This document shows positions 9,250 through 41,630 of a DNA stretch of 64,000 bases, piece by piece (positions within the stretch are counted from its first letter, which is position 1; each line of letters begins with the position of its first letter). A model generated the notes under the pieces. The model was not told the origin of the DNA. It saw only the letters and a program-made list of their open reading frames with translations, and made no database searches. The DNA comes from Desulfamplus magnetovallimortis. Lineage in GTDB: Bacteria > Desulfobacterota > Desulfobacteria > Desulfobacterales > Desulfobacteraceae. The stretch covers positions 18,110 to 82,109 of the forward strand of contig NZ_LT828555.1 of the NCBI RefSeq assembly GCF_900170035.1, written 5' to 3'. The position numbers and the translations under genes were made by a program.

Positions 9250-10083
9250 ATGAATATAATAAAAAAAAGAGAGGATATACCCGTTGTTGTTACAGCTTTT
9301 GGAACAACTGCCAAAGCCTTTAAAACATATGAAAAAATGGATGCCATATTTAAAAGGGAATTGCCGGAACAGCCTGTTTTCTGGGCATATTCATCAAGGA
9401 TGGTGAAACATGCCATGAAACGAAACAGCAATATTGATATCAAGGATCCGGCTGAAGTTTTGTTGATGCTAAAGGAAAAGGGCTATTCATGGGCTGTACT
9501 GCAATCCCTGCATCTCATTGGTGGTCATGAGCTCCACAGGCTTGCTTCAGAAGGAAACAGGGTGGATATCCGACTTTCACTTGGGCTTCCTCTTCTCTCT
9601 TCACCTGAAGATTACATGGAAACAGCCCGTGCAATGGAATCAATTTTCTGTGGAATAAATCCAGCTACTCATACTTCCGGAGCATCTGCAAAGCCCAAAG
9701 CACGAAGCGCTGTGGTTCTTGTGGGACATGGAACAGACCATCCCACATGGACATCATATTTTGCTCTTGAGGCAATAATGAGAGATGTTTATTCTACAGA
9801 CAGTATATTTACAGGAGTTGTAGAAGGTTTTCCGGAGATGGAAGTTACAGTACAAAGGGTAAAACAGGCAGGTTTTTCAAAGGTGTTGCTTGTTCCTTTT
9901 ATGCTTGTTGCTGGAGTCCATTTTCAGGAAGACCTGACAGGGGATGAAGATTCATGGCAGGCAGCATTTGAAAAGCAAGGGATTGAGGTTTCAGCCATAG
10001 GTGACGGCCTTGGAATGCTTGATGGTATCAGTACTATCTTTGTCAGGCATATTAAGGATGCACTGGATGTGATTCCTTTGTAA
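9250..10083 (+). CDS. cbiK: sirohydrochlorin cobaltochelatase, CbiK type
   Basis: 277 aa, the usual length for CbiK. It inserts Co2+ (or another divalent metal) into sirohydrochlorin in the anaerobic cobalamin pathway. VVVTAFGTTAKAF opens the first half; the second half has the metal-site His160 in GHGTDHP and His223 in AGVHFQEDL, plus Glu94 in GGHELHR, the positions expected for class II chelatases. There is no signal peptide, so it is cytoplasmic, unlike the periplasmic CbiK(P) of Desulfovibrio. AAGGA precedes the ATG by 7 nt. It follows the broken ABC remnant and lies about 3.4 kb from a TonB receptor, suggesting an old metal or corrinoid acquisition region. Assignment to this enzyme is firm; the physiological metal is inferred. 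Confidence 0.92.
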   Translation: MNIIKKREDIPVVVTAFGTTAKAFKTYEKMDAIFKRELPEQPVFWAYSSRMVKHAMKRNSNIDIKDPAEVLLMLKEKGYSWAVLQSLHLIGGHELHRLASEGNRVDIRLSLGLPLLSSPEDYMETARAMESIFCGINPATHTSGASAKPKARSAVVLVGHGTDHPTWTSYFALEAIMRDVYSTDSIFTGVVEGFPEMEVTVQRVKQAGFSKVLLVPFMLVAGVHFQEDLTGDEDSWQAAFEKQGIEVSAIGDGLGMLDGISTIFVRHIKDALDVIPL

Positions 10084-10275
10084 TGGTAGGTTCTGATACA
10101 GACAGTGATCTTGTTCCCTTTGGATTTTTTTGAGTGTCAAAACAAGTGTTTCCAGAGTACGATTTTATCATCCCACTGCATCACCAATAAGTTTGCATAA
10201 GCCTCATCCACAAAACACGCTGAAACGATACGTCATTGACGATATAGTGGACAAATTAAAAAGTGAGGAATTGAT

Positions 10276-10494
10276 ATGAAAGACATGATGGAATACAAAG
10301 GATATTATGGCTCTGTTCATTACAGCAATGATGACGAGGTCTTTCACGGTAAATTAGAGTTCATTTCTGCTTTGGTTAATTATGAAGGTGATGATGTAAA
10401 AGGTCTTAAAAGCGCATTCGAGGAAGCAGTTGATGACTATTTATATTTTTGTGAGGAAGAGGGGGGCACAGAAAAGCCATTCAAGGGTAGCTGA
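10276..10494 (+). pseudogene. hicB: HicB-like antitoxin, C-terminally truncated
   Basis: 72 aa matching the N-terminal half of HicB antitoxins (MMEYKGYYGSVHYSNDDEVF, AFEEAVDDYLYFCEEEG, KPFKGS). Family members normally run to about 105-120 aa with a ribbon-helix-helix or HTH DNA-binding end. Here the frame stops right after FKGS, directly before the R2 tandem array. No HicA toxin is found in the 190 bp upstream or downstream. A good ribosome binding site (GAGGA, 6 nt before the ATG) remains. It is either a pseudogene or a stand-alone partial HicB fold; I favour a remnant. Confidence 0.7.
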
Positions 10495-10506
10495 TATTTA
10501 AAACTG

Positions 10507-10830
10507 CCATGGCAGACCCCTCTGCCACAATGAAGCATGAAAGTCCTTAAAAAACCTTGAACTACAGGGACTTTCTTATAACCAACATGGCGGTTCACCG
10601 TCACAATGGAAGTGTTGAAAGTCTATATAAAAACAGCCATTTGCGGGGACTTTCATATAACGTACATGGCGGATAGCCGCCACAATCGAAGAGATGAAAG
10701 TCGTTTTAAAAACAGCCACTTACTGAGACTTTCATATAAACGTACATGGCGGATAGCCGCCACAATCGAAGAGATGAAAGTCGTTTTAAAAACAGCCACT
10801 TACTGAGACTTTCATATAAAAGCTTATAGA
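10507..10830. repeat. R2 tandem array, four units of about 80 bp
   Basis: Units start near 10507, 10585, 10664 and 10744. The last two (10661-10740 and 10741-10820) are identical over 80 bp; the first two are diverged and 78-79 bp long. Each unit holds two hairpins: a CATGGCGGATAGCCGCCA core and a stem of GATGAAAGTC with GACTTTCAT about 30 nt later. The whole unit repeats, so this is not a CRISPR with spacers. The short plus-strand open frame inside it (10606-10806) is not considered a gene. Confidence 0.9.
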
Positions 10831-10872
10831 AACCTTGATTCGTTTGTTTTCATATAATCTATTAAAATTATT

Positions 10873-10922
10873 GGCATCTTTCATATCTCCATCAAAATAG
10901 TTTACACTTTGTGCCCGGGATT
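10873..10922. repeat. R3 half element, overlapping the end of the next gene
   Basis: GGCATCTTTCATATC and TTTACACTTTGTG form one arm of an R3 element. The opposite arm is missing. On the minus strand the AAAGTGTAAAC word of this arm supplies the last codons and the TAA stop of the 154-aa secreted protein. Confidence 0.7.
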
Positions 10923-11366
10923 TTTAGCTTTTGTGGCGCTTTTCCAGAAGGCAAAACCAAAAACAAAGAAGATGGCAGATAATCCCAAAAATGCCTTTTC
11001 CAAATATGAGACATTGGAACTTTCAGAGGTTTTTTTTATGTCTTTTTTATATTTTAAAGTGTCAGTGATGGGTACGTTAAGTTCAAGCCTATGCCCCATT
11101 TCATCCTTTACTGTTACTTTGTAGCTGCCTTGAACATCTGGATAGAAGCAGAATCGGCCATTTCTGTCTGTCCATCCTGATGAGAATGGCAACTTCGAAT
11201 CTGGAGCCATAATTTCGGTTTCAGCGTAACTCATAGGTTCTCCATCACTGAATAGAGCTGTGATAACAACTCCGCCGGCATCAATATTGCCTGTTACCCC
11301 GTGGGCAATAGTTAAAGATGGAAAAAGACAGCAGAGAATCAACAGGACAAAGATATTTACTTTCAA
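10902..11366 (-). CDS. secreted/membrane-anchored protein with carboxypeptidase-regulatory-like domain
   Basis: 154 aa from a TTG start (GAGG 7 nt upstream). A signal peptide (VLLILCCLFPSLTIA) is followed by one small beta-sandwich domain (VVITALFSDGEPMSYAE, TDRNGRFCFYPDVQGSYKVTV) and a C-terminal membrane helix (FLGLSAIFFVFGFAFW) with a short basic tail. Such small proteins often sit beside DUF4198 proteins in metal-uptake loci; here the DUF4198-like gene is its upstream neighbour on the same strand. The very end of the protein (after KNPG) is encoded by an R3 repeat arm, so the natural C-terminus may have been altered. Confidence 0.7.
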   Translation of the reverse strand: MKVNIFVLLILCCLFPSLTIAHGVTGNIDAGGVVITALFSDGEPMSYAETEIMAPDSKLPFSSGWTDRNGRFCFYPDVQGSYKVTVKDEMGHRLELNVPITDTLKYKKDIKKTSESSNVSYLEKAFLGLSAIFFVFGFAFWKSATKAKNPGHKV

Positions 11367-11387
11367 AATATTTCCTCATGTTTTTAC

Positions 11388-11415
11388 CCACCCCTCTCCA
11401 ATCACTTGGAGGGGG
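11388..11415. repeat. R7 short hairpin, CCCCTCTCC type
   Basis: CCCCTCTCCAATCACTTGGAGGGGG forms a stem of about 8 bp. Similar hairpins occur near 27715, 37328, 43472 and 44492, each in an intergenic gap. No T-run follows. Confidence 0.5.
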
Positions 11416-11447
11416 ATAGGGTGAAGTCTTGACGAATACAATATTAT

Positions 11448-11507
11448 TTACCGTGAAAATGACTATCATTTTTATGTTTGGGGGTGATTGATACGCAATC
11501 ATGTCCG
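11448..11507. repeat. R4 element, copy a
   Basis: Starts TTTACCGTGAAAATGA, continues with GTTTGGGGGTGATTGA and ends AATCATGTCCG. The same order of words is seen at 47424-47492 and, inverted, at 24522-24584. Confidence 0.55.
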
Positions 11508-11508
11508 T

Positions 11509-12291
11509 TTAATTTTTAAAAGTCATCGTTGCTTTAAAAGCGTATTCATCTGCCTCATCTTGATTTTCATATGGATAGGAATGATCTGCTTTTACAAGCC
11601 ACACACCTTTCTCAACAAGCTGTATTTTTGCTATCCCATCCTTATCAGTTTTTGTGGTATATGCAAATGTATCTGCCATGTCTGAAAATCCGCTGTATGT
11701 TGCGAAGACCATTCCTCTCCAGGGTTTTCCATCCAAAGTTACCTTGACAGGCAACATTTCACCTTTATCAACTTGTGAAGGGTTAATCATGGGAATGATT
11801 TGAAATCTATCTTTTATATCTTTTTCGGTGAGTTCTTTTTGGTCATTGCTGACATTGACAAAGGCTTTAGAAACTGTTTCGCTCCATCTGGAATGTATAA
11901 CATTTTCTAGTTTGTTTTTTGGTAAGTATTTGTATCCTTTGGTTGTTTTAGTTGAAAAATTTTTTTGGGTCAGGACAACCGTATGAATTCCTGCTTTGGA
12001 AAATTTGATCTTTATGGGTTTATTTCCTTTTTCCTCTTCTGGTATAACATCAATGGCACTCTTTATTCCGTCAGGGTCAATGATCTCAAGTTTTGTATTG
12101 TCGTATGCCTCCCGTCTCATTGCACCATCTCCTGGGAATTTATGACCCCATCCAATGAAAATTGTAGTTTCTTCACCTGGCATGGGATTATAATTTTCCA
12201 TTGTAATTGAAGCATAATGTGCAAAAACCGGACTTGACAATATTGCACACAACAAAATTATGAATAGCACTATACATTTTTTTTTCTTCAT
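11509..12291 (-). CDS. DUF4198-like periplasmic protein
   Basis: 260 aa from the ATG at 12291, chosen because GGAG lies 6 nt upstream and a signal peptide follows directly (CIVLFIILLCAILSSPVFA). The mature protein begins HYASITMENYNPMPGEET, as in the DUF4198 family: His right after the signal cleavage, then a beta-sandwich with GWGHKFPGDG. The second half has a second Ig-like domain (PVKVTLDGKPWRGMVFATYS, DKDGIAKIQLVEKGVWLVKA). Family members are usually linked with nickel/cobalt transport, and the N-terminal His may bind metal. The context (cbiK, TonB receptor) agrees with a role in metal handling, but this is inference. Confidence 0.8.
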   Translation of the reverse strand: MKKKKCIVLFIILLCAILSSPVFAHYASITMENYNPMPGEETTIFIGWGHKFPGDGAMRREAYDNTKLEIIDPDGIKSAIDVIPEEEKGNKPIKIKFSKAGIHTVVLTQKNFSTKTTKGYKYLPKNKLENVIHSRWSETVSKAFVNVSNDQKELTEKDIKDRFQIIPMINPSQVDKGEMLPVKVTLDGKPWRGMVFATYSGFSDMADTFAYTTKTDKDGIAKIQLVEKGVWLVKADHSYPYENQDEADEYAFKATMTFKN

Positions 12292-12444
12292 TGCTTTCTC
12301 CTTAATTTGGCAGATCAATGCCAGGATGTTTTTCTGATTTCTTTTGTTAAAGAACACCAGCATAATAAATACTTAAATACACAGGCTTATTGACTTATTT
12401 GCTCTTCAGTCCACCTTAAAGATGGAAATTTGAATACATTTTTC

Positions 12445-12549
12445 GGCATGCTTCATTTCTCGGTTTACACTTTTCGGAGAGAAAAGTCTGTGTGGCGGGA
12501 ATATCTCAAAAAAAGTGTAAAGTACTTTTGGAGTCATATGAAGGATGCT
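12445..12549. repeat. R3 element, copy c (105 bp)
   Basis: Ends GGCATGCTTCATTT and CATATGAAGGATGC are inverted. Inner stems GTTTACACTTTTC and AAAGTGTAAAGTACTTT are also inverted. The GC-rich centre is between them. Confidence 0.8.
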
Positions 12550-12599
12550 CATTTTTCATGGTAAATTAGTTAACCATATATAAATACGGCGTTTAAAAT

Positions 12600-12657
12600 A
12601 AAAAAAGCCAGGAGTCCTGAAAGTAATCTTTCATATCAGGCCTTCCTGGCTTTATTG
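12600..12657. terminator. bidirectional terminator-like hairpin
   Basis: AAAAAAAGCCAGGA pairs with TCCTGGCTTTATT; an inner stem CCTGA/TCAGG extends it. A-run on one side, T-rich on the other. Confidence 0.6.
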
Positions 12658-12875
12658 TATTTTTATGCAGCTATATTGAAAACAATGCAATTTCAATTGC
12701 AATTTTGGAAGCAACTTTTAGCGCAAGAGTTGAATCTTTGTCAAGAATAAATTCATCATGGTATTCAAATAGTGATATTTTTTGTCTCTATTTTATATGC
12801 AGTGAGTCATCCATATAGGACTTTTTCCTGAAGAGTGCAGCGTTGGCTTATCATAAAATTTTTTTTATCATTCCC

Positions 12876-12904
12876 TTGACAAACAAAATTCGATCGAATA
12901 GAAG
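12876..12904 (+). promoter_or_regulatory. candidate promoter with central palindrome upstream of the TonB receptor
   Basis: TTGACA at 12876-12881 is followed, 17 nt later, by TAGAAG as a weak -10. A perfect 12-bp palindrome ATTCGATCGAAT (12888-12899) lies across the spacer, where a repressor would block RNA polymerase. The hairpin at 13035-13092 lies between this site and the receptor gene. The link to that gene is inferred from orientation and the absence of any other gene. Confidence 0.4.
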
Positions 12905-13034
12905 ATGCAAATATTTTTCATCAAGAAGATGAAGAGAGTATGGATGCAGTATAATGTTACGATGTATAAATAGAATGTGTTGCAGTAATGTGTTAATAAA
13001 TGTGAATTGATTTATTAACGAAAGTTATAATTAA

Positions 13035-13092
13035 AAAGCCACGAAGGCAATAAATCGGAAATCCCGATTGTGTCTTTGTGGCTTTTTTTGTT
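13035..13092. terminator. terminator-like hairpin in the receptor leader
   Basis: AAAAAGCCACGAAGGCA pairs with TGTCTTTGTGGCTTTTTTT, with ATCGGAAATCCCGAT as a small inner hairpin. A T-run follows. It is about 370 nt before the receptor start and could end a leader transcript. Confidence 0.6.
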
Positions 13093-13200
13093 TTTGGAAT
13101 AAATATCATGCATGACACACGAAGTTTGGATGTACATGAAAATCAATTTTTATCTGAACATGATATTTTGCACGATACATGATGTTTTTATTTGTAATTT

Positions 13201-13420
13201 ATATGAAAGTCTCCGTAACAGCCTGTTTTAAAAACGACTTTCATCCCTTCGATTGTGGCGGTAATCCGCATACGCATCAAGCTAAGGTTTTCAAAGCCTT
13301 ATCAGACGGGTTTTTCTAATTTTTGTTGTTAAGATGTTTGATTTTATATTTATAATAAAAACAAAGTCTTATATTCTTAGCTTGATGCGTATGCGGTAAT
13401 CCGCCATGTACGTTATTAGC
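13201..13420. repeat. R2 copy split by the R6 element
   Basis: ATATGAAAGTCTCC and GACTTTCATC form one R2 stem; GATTGTGGCGGTAATCCGC and, after the insertion, GCGGTAATCCGCCATGTACG form the other. The copy is inverted relative to the array at 10507-10830. Confidence 0.8.
13270..13392. mobile_element. R6: 123-bp MITE-like element with 17-bp TIRs and 12-bp target duplication
   Basis: The left end ATACGCATCAAGCTAAG is perfectly inverted at the right end (CTTAGCTTGATGCGTAT). The flanks on both sides are GCGGTAATCCGC (13258-13269 and 13393-13404), while uninterrupted R2 copies have this core once, so 12 bp appear duplicated. The element has no coding capacity. Inside is an A/T-rich spacer. It lies 50 bp upstream of the TonB receptor start. 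Only one copy is seen in this window, and no transposase with matching ends is present. Confidence 0.75.
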
Positions 13421-13457
13421 AATTAATAGTCAATATCTAAAATGTAAGGAGATTTTT

Positions 13458-15284
13458 GTGAAAAAAATTTATTTTTATGGAATAATTTGTTTCTTTTTTT
13501 TGTGTCTGCCTGCAATTGGTGACGATAAGGCGAGTGGCACAGGTGCTCTAACTCTTGAAGAAATCGTTGTTACTGGAACTAAGAGTCAACACACTCTGGA
13601 AGATACCCCGGTTACAACATATCTGGTTACCAAGGAGGAAATCGAGAAATCAAATGCAAAAACTGCAGGAGATGCCCTGAAATGGATTCCTGGTGTGTAT
13701 ATCAAATCAAACGGCTTTGCACGGCAGTCAGTCAACATAAACGGCCTGCCCAATGAATATACCCTTGTGCTGATTGATGGAATACGGCAGACTGGAAGAC
13801 ATGCAAATGCAGTTGATCTTGCAAATATCCCGTCAGACATGATTGAGAGAATAGAGGTTATCAAAGGTCCTTCTGCCCTTCTCTATGGCAGTGATGCAGT
13901 TGCAGGAGTAGTTAATGTGATAACCAGAAAGGTTCCGGAAAAAAGGTATGTTGCAGGTAAAGGCTCCTACGGGACAGGAGATGCAGTGGAGACTCAGTTC
14001 AATTTTGGTGAAACCCTTGGCAAATTCTCTTATACCCTTGGTGCAGGGCATCAGAGTAGCAACCATATGGGTGACGGATATGAATATGATGCCGACAATG
14101 CTGTTGGGAATTTTCAATACCAGATTAATCAGGATAACAGTCTCTCTCTTAACCTTAATATTTATAATGAAAACAGCGATTATCTTGATGATACAAAATT
14201 CAATGGTACCATTGGGATAGATACAAAATTTAGTGAAACCTCAAATCTTAAATTAAATATTTCAGAGCATTTTGCTACCCGTAGGGACATTCGTCCAAAC
14301 CAGTCTCCAAGGGATTGGGATTATGATAATCGTCAGGCATTGCTCCAATACAATCAGATGTTCGGTGATATTCAACTCGTTACCATTGGTGCTGAATACC
14401 GCCAAAACAATCTTGAATCAACAGAGGTTGGAGATCAGGACGAAAATATTGTCAGTAGTTTTTTGCAGGATGAGATTGAGCTTTTCAACTCCTCACTGGT
14501 TCTTGTTATTGGGGGGAGAATTGACCATCACGATCAGTGGGGTACCGAGTTTAACCCCAAGGGAAGTCTTTTATACATGATTAATCCGGAGACCAAAGTG
14601 CGGTTGAACGCAGGGCGTGCTTTTCTTGCTCCTCAGCTTGATGATCTTTACAAACTTCATCCCCACCATCATGTATCATACTGGATAGTGGGAAATCCTG
14701 ATATTGAACCTGAAACATCTGTGGGATACAGCATTGATCTCGAGCATGTGTGGGCAAATTCTCTGCTTGGACGTATCTCATTTTTCAGGAACGATATTGA
14801 TAATATGATTAGTTCAAGGGAAATAGGCACATATGAAACTGGAGAGAGTATTATGCAGTCATATAATATTGATGAAGCATGTGCTCAGGGATTTGAGCTG
14901 GAGGCTCAGTATGCACCCATAAAATCGTTGTTTATGTCTGCTGCTTATACCTATTCTGAAACAGAAGATAAGGCAGTTAAAAAGCAGATCAGGAATATGC
15001 CCAAGCATACAGGAAAATTACGTTTGAGGTATGATAATGAATCCTATGGATACACTGTTTCTTCTGAGCTGGAGTATATTGGCAAGATGTACACAGACAA
15101 AGCACTCACAACAGAGTCAGACGATTTTTTTCTGTTGAACTTTAAAGTAACAAAGACGTTATCTGATCATATCAACATGTTTGCAGGGGTGGATAATGTT
15201 TTTGATGAAGTCACAGCACCGGAAACTTCAAGGTACTTTGATATGGGTGTCTCATACACAGGCGGAGTAAGTTTCAGGTTTTAG
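13458..15284 (+). CDS. TonB-dependent outer-membrane receptor
   Basis: 608 aa from a GTG start (AAGGAG 6 nt upstream). A signal peptide (YFYGIICFFFLCLPAIG) precedes a TonB box-like stretch (LEEIVVTGTKS), the plug domain (VYIKSNGFARQSVNINGL, IERIEVIKGPSALLYGSDAV) and a 22-strand barrel ending in SYTGGVSFRF. Length and the compact plug fit the BtuB/CirA-like small receptors for cobalamin, catecholates, heme or metal chelates. A His-rich loop (KLHPHHHVSYW) could touch a metal. Its neighbours are the TonB/ExbBD genes downstream and cbiK, DUF4198-like upstream, so a cobalt, nickel, corrinoid or heme substrate is plausible; the sequence alone does not decide. Confidence 0.9.
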   Translation: MKKIYFYGIICFFFLCLPAIGDDKASGTGALTLEEIVVTGTKSQHTLEDTPVTTYLVTKEEIEKSNAKTAGDALKWIPGVYIKSNGFARQSVNINGLPNEYTLVLIDGIRQTGRHANAVDLANIPSDMIERIEVIKGPSALLYGSDAVAGVVNVITRKVPEKRYVAGKGSYGTGDAVETQFNFGETLGKFSYTLGAGHQSSNHMGDGYEYDADNAVGNFQYQINQDNSLSLNLNIYNENSDYLDDTKFNGTIGIDTKFSETSNLKLNISEHFATRRDIRPNQSPRDWDYDNRQALLQYNQMFGDIQLVTIGAEYRQNNLESTEVGDQDENIVSSFLQDEIELFNSSLVLVIGGRIDHHDQWGTEFNPKGSLLYMINPETKVRLNAGRAFLAPQLDDLYKLHPHHHVSYWIVGNPDIEPETSVGYSIDLEHVWANSLLGRISFFRNDIDNMISSREIGTYETGESIMQSYNIDEACAQGFELEAQYAPIKSLFMSAAYTYSETEDKAVKKQIRNMPKHTGKLRLRYDNESYGYTVSSELEYIGKMYTDKALTTESDDFFLLNFKVTKTLSDHINMFAGVDNVFDEVTAPETSRYFDMGVSYTGGVSFRF

Positions 15285-15355
15285 TCAGCAAAATGAAAAA
15301 ATTTAATTTTCTTGACTTCACTTGTGGTGTCAAGTAATAGATAATCTTTAATTTT

Positions 15356-15374
15356 GCGGCTGAAGCCGTTTTTT
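15356..15374 (+). terminator. rho-independent terminator after the TonB receptor
   Basis: CGGC, TGAA loop, GCCG, then TTTTTT. Located about 75 nt after the receptor stop. A second small hairpin (AACCCGAAGCATTTGGGTT) follows. Confidence 0.7.
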
Positions 15375-15515
15375 GTAACCCGAAGCATTTGGGTTCTGAA
15401 AGGACAGATTTAAAGATATTTCAAGGCAGAGCCTTGTGACTGTTCAAGTTTATTTGCCGAAGAATCGCTAAAGAACAAAAGAATAATCGGTAAAGAGCAA
15501 AAAAGATAAAACAAA

Positions 15516-15575
15516 AGGCCATGAAGGTCCGTAGCCCTGATGGGGGTTGGATTTTCATGGCCTTTTTTATTTTAA
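15516..15575 (+). terminator. terminator or attenuator hairpin before the DUF3450 gene
   Basis: AAAAGGCCATGAAGGTCC pairs with GGATTTTCATGGCCTTTTTT across a GC-rich loop; a T-run follows. It lies about 95 nt before the start at 15671, so it may act as an attenuator of the ExbB-TonB operon or simply end an upstream transcript. Confidence 0.6.
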
Positions 15576-15582
15576 AAGTATA

Positions 15583-15655
15583 GGTGTTTCCATTTTATTG
15601 CCTGTAAAAGCAATAAGTTATGGAAAAGTATGCCATAAGGGCACTATTTTAAATC
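15583..15655 (+). promoter_or_regulatory. leader motif shared with 24640-24712
   Basis: GTATAGG, a T-rich arm, GCCTGTAAAAGCAATAA, GTTATGGAAAA and a final AAGGGCAC. The order and spacing match the leader of the PKD/Cna gene at 24640 (GTATAGG, CCTGCAAAAGCAGACGG, TTATGGAAAG, GTGCCC). A TCCAT/ATGGA outer stem and a TTATTGC/GCAATAA inner stem enclosing CTGTAAAA can form. No known riboswitch consensus is matched. Confidence 0.4.
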
Positions 15656-15670
15656 TCAGAGGGGAAAAAA

Positions 15671-16441
15671 GTGATTGGTAGATATTTTTTGATGTTCATT
15701 TTGGTGCCTTTTTTCATCACCTGTGCCTATGCGGGCGATACAACTGCGGAAATTGCTGAATCATCGGTTACAAAGTCCATTGAGACCCGTCAGGCAACAC
15801 AGCAGGAGATAGATAAATGGGAAGAGGAAAAACTGCAACTTCAAGCCGAGTATGACAATCTTATGCAGGAGAATGAGCTTCTTGCTGCAACCCAAAAGGT
15901 GCTTTCCTTGGAAGTTGCCCAGCGTCGGGAGAATGTTGAATCATTGAAGGTGCAACAAAATGAAAATGAAGAGATCGAAAGGGAGCTTCTTCCTTTTCTT
16001 GAATCATTATATGCAGAATTGAATGAATTTGTGCTTCAGGATACGCTGTTTCTCAGGGAAGAGCGAAGAGGGCGCATGGCAGGGCTTGCCCGTGTTATGG
16101 AACAGATTGATTTGACCATTGCGGAAAAATACAGAAAGTTGATGGAGGCGCTTTTTATTGAAGCAGAATATGGCAATACCATAGAAGTTACCCGTGAAAA
16201 GATTGACATTGGCGGAAATGGCGAAGAGATTGTGGCCGATATTTTTCGGCTTGGACGCATATCTCTTTTTGCCCTGACCCTGGACAGAAATGAGGCTGCC
16301 TCCTTTAATGTGGCACAACATAAATGGCTTCCGCTGAATCCCATACATATTCCGGCAATTCAATCGGCAGTGGAGATTGCTCAAAAACAGCGTAGTGTCG
16401 AGATACTTGCCATGCCCCTGGGTTCTCTTAAGGTTCAGTGA
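15671..16441 (+). CDS. DUF3450 family protein, TonB-system accessory
   Basis: 256 aa from a GTG start with GAGGGG 6 nt upstream. A signal peptide (FLMFILVPFFITCAYAG) leads into a long coiled coil (about residues 40-110, heptads with KLQLQAEYDNLMQENELLA) and a C-terminal globular part (LMEALFIEAEYGNTIEVTRE, FRLGRISLFALTLDRNEAA). This is the layout of DUF3450 periplasmic proteins that precede the TtpC/ExbB-ExbD-TonB2 operons of Vibrio and relatives. Its stop overlaps the start of the long ExbB by 4 nt (GTGA). It probably helps couple the ExbB complex to TonB in the periplasm. Confidence 0.85.
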   Translation: MIGRYFLMFILVPFFITCAYAGDTTAEIAESSVTKSIETRQATQQEIDKWEEEKLQLQAEYDNLMQENELLAATQKVLSLEVAQRRENVESLKVQQNENEEIERELLPFLESLYAELNEFVLQDTLFLREERRGRMAGLARVMEQIDLTIAEKYRKLMEALFIEAEYGNTIEVTREKIDIGGNGEEIVADIFRLGRISLFALTLDRNEAASFNVAQHKWLPLNPIHIPAIQSAVEIAQKQRSVEILAMPLGSLKVQ

Positions 16442-18051
16442 AAAAGGAATATTTGCACATGCGACCAATGCCTGAAAGATCAGTGTCTATTCATTTTATA
16501 TTGTCTGTTTATATTATGCTGTTTGCTATGTTGATTAATATGTTTTTCTTTCTGCCGTCGGTCTTTGCCGGAGACATGAGAGGAACCCACCTTGCCCTTG
16601 AGGAACAAAAAAGCCGTCTTAGGGCAAAAGCCATTGAGGAGCTTGAAAAAGCACGAGAAGAGGCGAGATTGAAAGCTGAAGAGATCCGCAATGACCGCAA
16701 TGCATTGAAAAATGCTGTTGAAAAACTCAAGCAGGAGAACGAAGAGCTTGCACATAATAATCAGGAGATGGAAAAAGAGATTACAATATTAAAGGAAGAA
16801 GAGACAGCATTATCCCAATCTCTTGAAGAGAGCATTGCCGTCAACAGGGAACTTGCAGGATTGCTAAGAAGCAATGCAAAGGATCTTGAAAACATTCTTG
16901 TTCAGAGCCTGCAAAGCGCCTTGAGTGTAGATATAAATCGCCATGATTTTCTCAAACCCATGATTGACCAGGAAAAATTTCCGTCAATGGCTGATATCCG
17001 TAAAATGGCATCCATTCTTTTTGACGAAATAAGTGCATCCGGCGAGGTTAGGCTTGATAGGGGAATGATCGTGGATCGCCAGGGTGTTGAAAGGGTCGCT
17101 GATCTTCTTATCATTGGTAACTTTACGGCAATATACTCCATTGACATGGATAAAGGCTCTCAAAACAGTACAGAGATAGATAAAGCCTCTCAAAACAGTA
17201 AAGAAAATAACTCTGGTCGGGAAACCGGTTTTTTGCTTTACTCAGATCAGAGCCAGCGTCTCTTTGCCCTTTCAAAACTACCTGAAAAAAATATTGTCAG
17301 GAATCTTGTGGCCTACATGAAGGGAGAGCAGGACGATGTCTATATGGATATATCAAAGGGTGCAGCCATAAGGCAGCTTACCCATCAGTTAAGCCTCAGA
17401 GAGCAGATTCCAAAGGGCGGTCCCATTGTGTGGCCAATAGTTGCTATCCTTGGGATTGCACTTGTTATTTTGGTGGAGAGAATCATCTTCTTTTTAAGAA
17501 AACAGATAAATGCTGACAAATTCATGAAACGCCTTGAACCTCTTGTAAGGGCAAATCGTTGGGATGATTGCAGACGCCTTCTTGAATCTTCCAGAAAACG
17601 ATTGATACCCAAGGTGTTGTTGACAGCAATGGATTTCAGGGATCAGGATCGCGCTGATATGGAGAATGCCCTTCAGGAGGCAATTCTCAACGAGATCCCA
17701 AGAATTGAACGATTTCTTTCAACCCTTGGAATGCTTGCTGCCATTGCACCGCTTTTAGGTCTTCTTGGCACTGTAACCGGTATGATCAATACATTTCATG
17801 CCATAACATCCTGTGGTACCGGAGATCCCAGAATGATGTCAGGCGGTATTTCAGAAGCGCTGGTTACAACCATGCTGGGACTTTCAGTTGCAATTCCTGT
17901 TATGCTTGTTCATACCATTTTAAGCCGTCATGTTGAGACGGAAATCGGGAAAATTGAGGAAAAGTCTGTCTCTTTTGTGAATATGATATTCAAAAATAAA
18001 AATAGTTTTGTTGTACATGGAAAGAAAAAACAGGATGGACAGGATGTGTGA
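16438..18051 (+). CDS. TtpC-like long ExbB/TolQ/MotA family protein
   Basis: 537 aa. After an N-terminal membrane/signal segment (HFILSVYIMLFAMLINMFFF) comes a periplasmic coiled coil (about residues 45-140) and a domain similar to that of the preceding DUF3450 protein. The last 200 residues are a MotA/TolQ/ExbB channel: helix GPIVWPIVAILGIALVILVE, then LSTLGMLAAIAPLLGLLGTV and ALVTTMLGLSVAIPVMLVHT. This matches TtpC, the extra subunit of TonB2 systems. The GTG at 16438 overlaps the previous stop; an ATG at 16459 is possible. A local duplication gives the pair MDKGSQNSTE and IDKASQNSKE at about residues 238-255. Confidence 0.85.
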   Translation: MKKEYLHMRPMPERSVSIHFILSVYIMLFAMLINMFFFLPSVFAGDMRGTHLALEEQKSRLRAKAIEELEKAREEARLKAEEIRNDRNALKNAVEKLKQENEELAHNNQEMEKEITILKEEETALSQSLEESIAVNRELAGLLRSNAKDLENILVQSLQSALSVDINRHDFLKPMIDQEKFPSMADIRKMASILFDEISASGEVRLDRGMIVDRQGVERVADLLIIGNFTAIYSIDMDKGSQNSTEIDKASQNSKENNSGRETGFLLYSDQSQRLFALSKLPEKNIVRNLVAYMKGEQDDVYMDISKGAAIRQLTHQLSLREQIPKGGPIVWPIVAILGIALVILVERIIFFLRKQINADKFMKRLEPLVRANRWDDCRRLLESSRKRLIPKVLLTAMDFRDQDRADMENALQEAILNEIPRIERFLSTLGMLAAIAPLLGLLGTVTGMINTFHAITSCGTGDPRMMSGGISEALVTTMLGLSVAIPVMLVHTILSRHVETEIGKIEEKSVSFVNMIFKNKNSFVVHGKKKQDGQDV

Positions 18052-41474: not shown

Positions 41475-41630
41475 TTTATATGAAAGTCCCCGTAGTTTGG
41501 GGATTTTCATCCATTCGATTGTGGCGGTAATGCCGCCATGGCCGCTATAAGAAAGTTCCTGTTTTTTTAGGGAGCTTAGGGACTTTCATGCTTCGTTGTG
41601 GCAGATAAGTCTGCCATGGCCGTTATATTA
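41475..41630. repeat. R2 repeat, two units
   Basis: ATGAAAGTCCCC, GGTGGCGGTAATGCCGCCATGG-like core (GGCGGTAATGCCGCC), GAAAGTTCC, GACTTTCATGCTTCG and GGCAGATAAGTCTGCCATGG. It ends 20 nt before the YkgJ-type gene. Confidence 0.8.

Follow-up and report, generated by a model that had tools for sequence, protein, structure and literature searches.

A recently inserted MITE with IS231-like ends in a REP-like repeat of Desulfamplus magnetovallimortis

Introduction

Upstream of a TonB-dependent receptor gene on contig NZ_LT828555.1 of Desulfamplus magnetovallimortis, a palindromic repeat (R2) is split by a short segment (R6) that begins and ends with a perfect inverted repeat, and the stem sequence of the palindrome stands on both sides of it. 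This arrangement raises the question of whether R6 is a mobile element that landed in R2 or the remainder of an old double hairpin and, if the former, what moved it, what drew it to this site and whether it matters to the receptor gene. An earlier note on the same DNA favoured the insertion of a 123-bp element, with a 12-bp target duplication and recognition of a REP-like hairpin. We address these points using the whole stretch of 64,000 nucleotides that was analysed (the window, in which all unprefixed positions are given), the assembly from which it comes (a 6.68-Mb draft in 108 contigs, 97.3% complete) and the genomes of related bacteria.

Results and discussion

Boundaries of R6 and its target duplication

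The 17-bp perfect inverted repeat from which the earlier note started is present at 13270-13286 and 13376-13392. Allowing up to three mismatches, the same 17-mer matches the 64-kb window twice, both times at the R6 ends, against 0.10 matches expected from shuffled sequence. Across the ten copies of the element in the genome (see below), a C precedes ATACGC and a G follows GCGTAT whatever the target. Because these outer bases are constant in all ten, R6 is set here at 125 bp (13269-13393, + strand) with an 18-bp terminal inverted repeat (TIR), CATACGCATCAAGCTAAG, whose left copy lies at 13269-13286 (+ strand) and whose perfect right copy lies at 13376-13393 (- strand). The proposed length of 123 bp is thereby corrected, and the boundaries move by one base at each end.

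The doubled GCGGTAATCCGC around the element is found where the note had placed it, at 13258-13269 and 13393-13404. The insertion it was taken to indicate is borne out by the copies described below; the duplication itself, however, is 10 bp and not 12 bp, consisting of CGGTAATCCG at 13259-13268 and 13394-13403 (both + strand). It appears longer because the C and G that bound R6 adjoin CGGTAATCCG, which on its outer sides has a G before it and a C after it. R6 contains a stop codon in all six frames, and its 40-bp right end (13354-13393, - strand) is conserved in miniature inverted-repeat elements (MITEs) that four further genomes of the order carry.

Ten near-identical copies at ten sites

The genome search that had been suggested for the 17-bp end gave 21 matches in the draft assembly at up to two mismatches (one in the reversed control), which resolve into ten end pairs, each an R6 copy, and one lone end. 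At up to three mismatches the same ten pairs and lone end were recovered along with twelve dispersed, unpaired ends that differ at three positions (reversed control four). Eight of the R6 copies are identical over 125 bp, and those at C8 and C14 are 124 bp long and identical to each other, a degree of likeness that points to recent amplification. An exact direct repeat lies immediately outside R6 in all ten copies, 10 bp long in nine of them and 11 bp in one. Listed in order, these duplications are GGCTGGGGGG, GGGCTGGGGG, GGGTAAGGGG, GGGCAATATCC, CCCCCCAGCC, GGCTTGGGGG, GGCATTACCG, CGGTAATCCG (window), GTCTATACCA and GTGATATCCC. If reverse complements are counted as equal, there are nine different sequences; GGCTGGGGGG and CCCCCCAGCC represent one sequence in this sense, drawn from two members of one repeat family.

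Such varied duplications around a single element indicate insertion, not an ancestral double hairpin. REP, REPIN and BIME units are dispersed palindromes without terminal target duplications; around R6 the duplications are present and vary in sequence, and it is the target, R2, that is REP-like. The alternative is a BIME or REPIN-like doublet made of two ancestral REP-like hairpins in inverted orientation, with the doubled GCGGTAATCCGC simply belonging to the repeat; it could appeal to an inverted repeat that grows to 31 bp with 87% complementarity if the palindromic targets are included. With R6 present at nine other sites between other duplicated sequences, and with many sampled R2 copies free of any insert, we find the doublet hardly credible.

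R6 is short, has TIRs and no transposase gene, occurs as dispersed near-identical copies, and has a target duplication and a paralogous empty site. We classify it as a MITE because of its ten near-identical copies, the duplications at ten different sites and the exact empty sites. The locus is a genuine recent MITE insertion in R2, and the element is of a kind already known. A search of 145 genomes, the source genome included, scoring no more than six candidates in each, recovered full-length R6 from the source genome alone.

The interrupted repeat and the choice of target

The assembly contains 328 matches to R2, a REP-like repeat about 80 bp long, at up to three mismatches (none in the reversed control); four of them fall within the 64-kb window. 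R2 was noted there at 10669-10779 (- strand), 13198-13416 and 41505-41527. The repeat is often tandem, with a period of 79-80 bp, and typically ends in a GGCGG-loop-CCGCC-like hairpin and ATGTACGTTAT. The copy hit by R6 is divided into a left part (13198-13268, + strand; outer limit drawn by eye against intact copies) and a right part, CGGTAATCCGCCATGTACGTTAT (13394-13416, + strand; outer limit also by eye). Thirty of the 328 loci were sampled for comparison. Among them, the intact copies L278, L279, L280, L284, L285 and L288 carry GTGGCGGTAATCCGCCATGTACGTTAT uninterrupted and are paralogous empty sites for the insertion. The core occurs once per intact R2, as the earlier note had held, and the doubled stem without the element, which it had named as evidence to the contrary, was seen in none of the sampled copies.

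A second REP-like family, CCCCCTCTCC-N-GGAGAGGGGGCTGGGGGGTGAGG, has 35 matches in the assembly at up to one mismatch (loci L308-L327; none in the reversed control). A search for R6 inside other R2 copies, likewise suggested earlier, places two of the ten elements in R2, and four are in the second family. The copy at C5, kept outside this count, lies in what appears by eye to be a decayed relative of the second family. The two families together make up about 0.45% of the genome, so that finding six of ten copies in REP-like repeats would arise by chance with p ~2e-12, or with p ~1e-7 (rough) if only 15% of the genome were insertable, in a binomial estimate that uses rounded, author-chosen repeat lengths of 83 and 75 bp and an assumed insertable fraction. 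For R2 alone, the same estimate for two of ten copies gives 0.0007, or roughly 0.03 with 15% of the genome insertable.

Long open frames are interrupted by three of the ten copies (C7, C22 and C27), as counted by open frame and not by homology; empty-site frames were shown for five copies, and those at C5 (318 aa) and at C16 (496 aa; an upstream extension of the TonB frame) were judged by eye not to be interrupted genes. The position struck within the repeats also differs: R2 is hit at its axis, the second family at the stem margin. What the targets have in common is a 10-mer that is GC-rich or GG-bearing. They fit the pattern GGGN5CCC poorly: in five of the ten, both halves are rich in G on one and the same strand, and between 0 and 4 of the 5 dyad positions pair. 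Recognition of a REP-like hairpin, as first proposed, is thus favoured by the strong excess in REP-like repeats and weakened by the stem-edge targets and by the three copies in long frames. Taken together, six copies in REP-like repeats and three in long frames fit a GC-rich target better than hairpin recognition, and a preference of R6 for GC-rich sites, which REP-like repeats supply, describes the data better.

A broader proposal, tentative and in our view somewhat doubtful, is that IS231-like MITEs in an order that includes sulfate reducers use the REP-like repeats of their hosts as landing sites at which insertion would cost little. In R2, the insertion would have preserved the outer stem and lengthened what had been a small leader hairpin ahead of a receptor gene.

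Related MITEs in Desulfonema magnum

Among 389 genomes of the order, counting that of R6 itself, five contain the pattern of the 40-bp right end at up to three mismatches (reversed control none). An exact scan of the genome collection with a degenerate form of this end returned 77 stretches, 75 from Desulfonema magnum 4be13 and two from a Desulfobacterales metagenome genome; viral contigs gave 0 stretches with the right end. Genome G198, with 95 ends, is D. magnum or near-identical to it, as 500-mers around the element from six of eight of its loci recur exactly in the stretches just mentioned. In an alignment of two R6 copies with six of these MITEs, the right end is conserved over 40 bp and the left end little beyond the TIR.

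A total of 73 MITE end pairs were obtained from the 77 stretches (72 in D. magnum and one in the metagenome genome), a figure that includes a few pairs twice (nested or overlapping ones, at L237 and L264), each left end having been paired with the next right end. Exact duplications flank 61 of the 73 pairs, 45 of them 11 bp and 16 of them 10 bp long, while 11 pairs have no duplication and one has only 4 bp. Target statistics were calculated leaving out the two metagenome stretches. The D. magnum targets are not independent, because many are the same repeat sequence (GGGTTTCTCCC, for example, occurs repeatedly), and it is with this dependence that the following figures are to be read: 15 of the 45 11-bp targets are exactly GGGN5CCC, compared with 0.045% of 20,000 random 11-mers from the same stretches, and 27 of the 45 are GGN7CC, compared with 0.4% of 20,000 random 11-mers, with a mean dyad complementarity around the target centre of 5.7, which drops to 3.7 once that centre is displaced by 2-3 bp.

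Several features of these genomes were recorded in passing. In the D. magnum type genome, MITEs are nested in or beside other MITEs at L118, L209 and L246, and the larger ones at these loci contain an internal GGACGGGGTTTGCAACCCCGTCC palindrome resembling the sites into which such elements insert. At position 2160 of L111, an R6-type end adjoins a direct repeat of about 26 bp, not 10-11 bp, and a second R6-type end is absent. G198 also harbours an IS4-family insertion sequence (IS) in 14 equally scoring copies (L142, L145, L152, L155, L158 and others) with ends CATAGGTGTAAAGTTAAG, several copies of which show GC-rich 10-bp duplications by eye; this IS is a possible cross-mobiliser of the MITEs.

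Candidate transposases

The earlier note had also suggested looking for a transposase gene with the same ends. None was found in the draft assembly of D. magnetovallimortis by profile searches with PF01609 (six matches) and NF033592 (six matches, none above the cut-off) or by the end searches. At the PF01609 loci, the readable sequence contains no R6-like end at up to five mismatches except the lone end on C12; several of these loci contain N, so that some ends are invisible. The mobiliser was thus not located in an assembly that, being a draft, has room for one, and it appears to have been lost from, or to be missing in, the draft genome.

The lone end (L012, position 1500; C12:169597) has no partner and lies near a broken copy of another IS. 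The transposase relic there was rejected as the mobiliser, given that its intact relatives in two genomes end in the TTCGGACAG type. An end of that type separates the lone R6-type end from the relic, and the lone end matches neither terminus of that IS. IS4-family ISs of the genus or family at L328, L193, L194 and L198 were likewise set aside, their ends reading ...CCGGTTA..., and no clear ends were found at the IS4-family loci L185, L332, L335 and L337 of the genus or family.

Complete ISs with R6-type ends are present in other genomes of the same order. A tblastn search with the L141 transposase against 291 genomes (own genome included) gave matches in 49, most of them weak; complete ISs with R6-type ends are among the strong ones. 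L173 in G152 is a complete IS of 1661 bp with ends CATATGCATCAAGCTAAG and target duplication GGGAGTACCG, and L174 in G117 is a complete IS of 1520 bp with ends CATACGCATCAGGCTAAG and target duplication GGGCGATAGCC, the transposase frame of which has one stop. L171 (the same locus as L141) in G122 is an IS of 1666 bp with ends CATATGCATCAAGCTAA, in which TIRs are present without a matching duplication. The ends of these three are one to two mismatches from those of R6, those of the ISs L175, L176 and L177 are more distant, and an end scan of L172 in G250 (51% identical to L141) gave no pair. The L141 and L142 transposases score 226.6 and 194.4 bits, respectively, against NF033592 (transpos_IS4_1; cut-off 115), the L173 and L174 transposases are 47-48% identical to L141, and a Y(2)R(3)E(6)K motif was present in six of six IS loci checked. 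No relative of the L141 transposase with a solved structure was found by sequence at E 0.001. As judged by eye, R6 shares the TIR alone with the complete ISs and not their internal sequence. Relatives of the L173 transposase found by tblastn in plasmids amount to 274 records, haloarchaeal and Bacillaceae ones among them; this tally is led by Klebsiella (110 of 274, with Aeromonas at 44), all at less than 60% identity, and does not decide the subgroup.

These ISs bear on whether R6 was instead cross-mobilised by a transposase with rather different ends, such as that of the 14-copy CATAGGTGTAAAGTTAAG IS of D. magnum or of an unrelated resident IS. The longest R6-type end pair in the D. magnum stretches is no more than 289 bp, with no autonomous copy seen there, and the 18-bp ends of the D. 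magnum IS are four to five positions away from the R6 type while its targets are similar. The lack of R6-type ends in the readable sequence at PF01609 matches of the R6 genome also favours cross-mobilisation. Against this, complete ISs with ends one to two mismatches from R6 exist in the order, and hence a matching lineage does too, which leads us to regard cross-mobilisation as unlikely, though a serious alternative. The reading we prefer is that the IS4-family transposase of ISs with R6-type ends moved R6, presumably by cut-and-paste.

The downstream receptor gene

The nearest downstream gene encodes a TonB-dependent receptor of 608 aa (13458-15284, + strand), which has several TonB-receptor model matches, below the curated cut-off in all of the 25 models listed. 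The frame begins with GTG at 13458, 64 bp from R6. In a search for an orthologous empty site by way of this gene, no orthologue was found in the nine other genomes of the genus, where only distant matches were obtained (the one with the best E-value at 40% identity over part of the protein). Genes at 9250-18051 include those for a CbiK-like chelatase, a NikL-like subunit, the TonB receptor and an ExbB/TolQ-like protein, all below curated cut-offs; judged by these sequence matches, the neighbourhood looks like one for metal or cofactor uptake.

Another suggestion is that R6 was retained as a portable regulatory cassette, acting through an outward promoter or a long leader RNA hairpin on genes such as that of the TonB receptor. 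As RNA, R6 within R2 folds as a single extended hairpin set inside the stem of R2 (-64.7 kcal/mol, z -10.2). Any such insertion into a palindrome gives this fold, and any element with TIRs is expected to fold strongly; the Rfam models gave no match at gathering score between 8000 and 19000. A promoter-like match within R6 (TTAAGA-16-TATAAT, 10/12; 13329-13356, + strand) is directed towards the TonB gene, but such matches are not above chance for the region, numbering two compared with a mean of 3.0 in shuffles. Three of the ten copies break long reading frames, and recency alone accounts for the near-identity of the copies. A regulatory role as the reason for the retention of R6 is, on this evidence, improbable.

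A model for the insertion

The explanation that best covers the observations as a whole, and that we hold with high confidence, is that R6 is a recent MITE insertion moved via its 18-bp ends by an IS4-family transposase of the IS231/ISH8 type. Such a transposase would bind both 18-bp ends of R6 and excise the element, which would then be joined to a target cut with a stagger of roughly one helical turn. Repair of this cut would produce the target duplication of 10 bp, occasionally 11 bp. The preferred target would be a GC-rich 10-11-mer of the GG(G)...(C)CC type, plentiful in REP-like repeats such as R2.

These results place IS231-type ends and their MITEs in this bacterial order. A prior description of IS231-type MITEs in the order was not found in the open-access collection that was searched. 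R6 illustrates cleanly the landing of an IS4-type element in REP-like repeats, given its identical copies and the exactness of its empty sites, and the target rule becomes readable from dozens of duplicated targets in a relative whose genome is closed. For the annotation of the window, R6 should be entered as a recent insertion and not as a conserved leader of the TonB gene.

Comparison with known systems

R6 shows a close likeness to the IS231 subgroup of the IS4 family, for which conserved ends of CAT-------AA--TAA--- and direct repeats of 10-12 bp are listed (Table 1 of PMC2266710). CATACGCATCAAGCTAAG fits this consensus at every stated position, and the R6 duplications (10 bp in nine of ten copies and 11 bp in one) fall within the range. 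Likewise, YREK transposases lie between R6-type ends in the ISs of other genomes. The provisional assignment to IS231 is based on the ends and the duplication length and is to be read beside the ISH8 subgroup, which also has CAT ends and 10-bp repeats.

In 1994, Hallet et al. reportedly gave GGGN5CCC as the target of IS231A. The same pattern is seen in the D. magnum MITEs, whereas the ten targets of R6 fit it poorly. MIC231 is a non-autonomous, gene-carrying cassette of IS231; R6 differs in carrying no gene. Many IS231 elements also carry extra DNA with passenger genes, and cut-and-paste chemistry is described for the transposition of IS231A (PMC2266710). The hosts differ as well, IS231 being almost confined to the Bacillus cereus group according to the same source, while the R6-type hosts belong to the order containing D. 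magnum. The ISH8 subgroup, with its 5'-CAT ends and 10-bp duplications, is there said to have elements in proteobacteria also and to be without apparent target specificity (PMC2266710); the D. magnum MITEs, in contrast, show one.

In its general features R6 resembles bacterial MITEs as characterised in PMC10969869, which are short and gene-less, with TIRs, a target duplication and near-identical copies, and it shows no difference in kind from them. A precedent for its landing behaviour is provided by ISRm22, an IS4-family element confined to REPs: every copy lies in them, with 6-bp duplications at the axis of the palindrome (PMC1525189). Both elements are IS4-type, hit palindromic repeats and share a GC-rich palindromic target; R6 differs from ISRm22 in having six of ten copies in REP-like repeats, 10-bp duplications and insertions that are not always at the axis.
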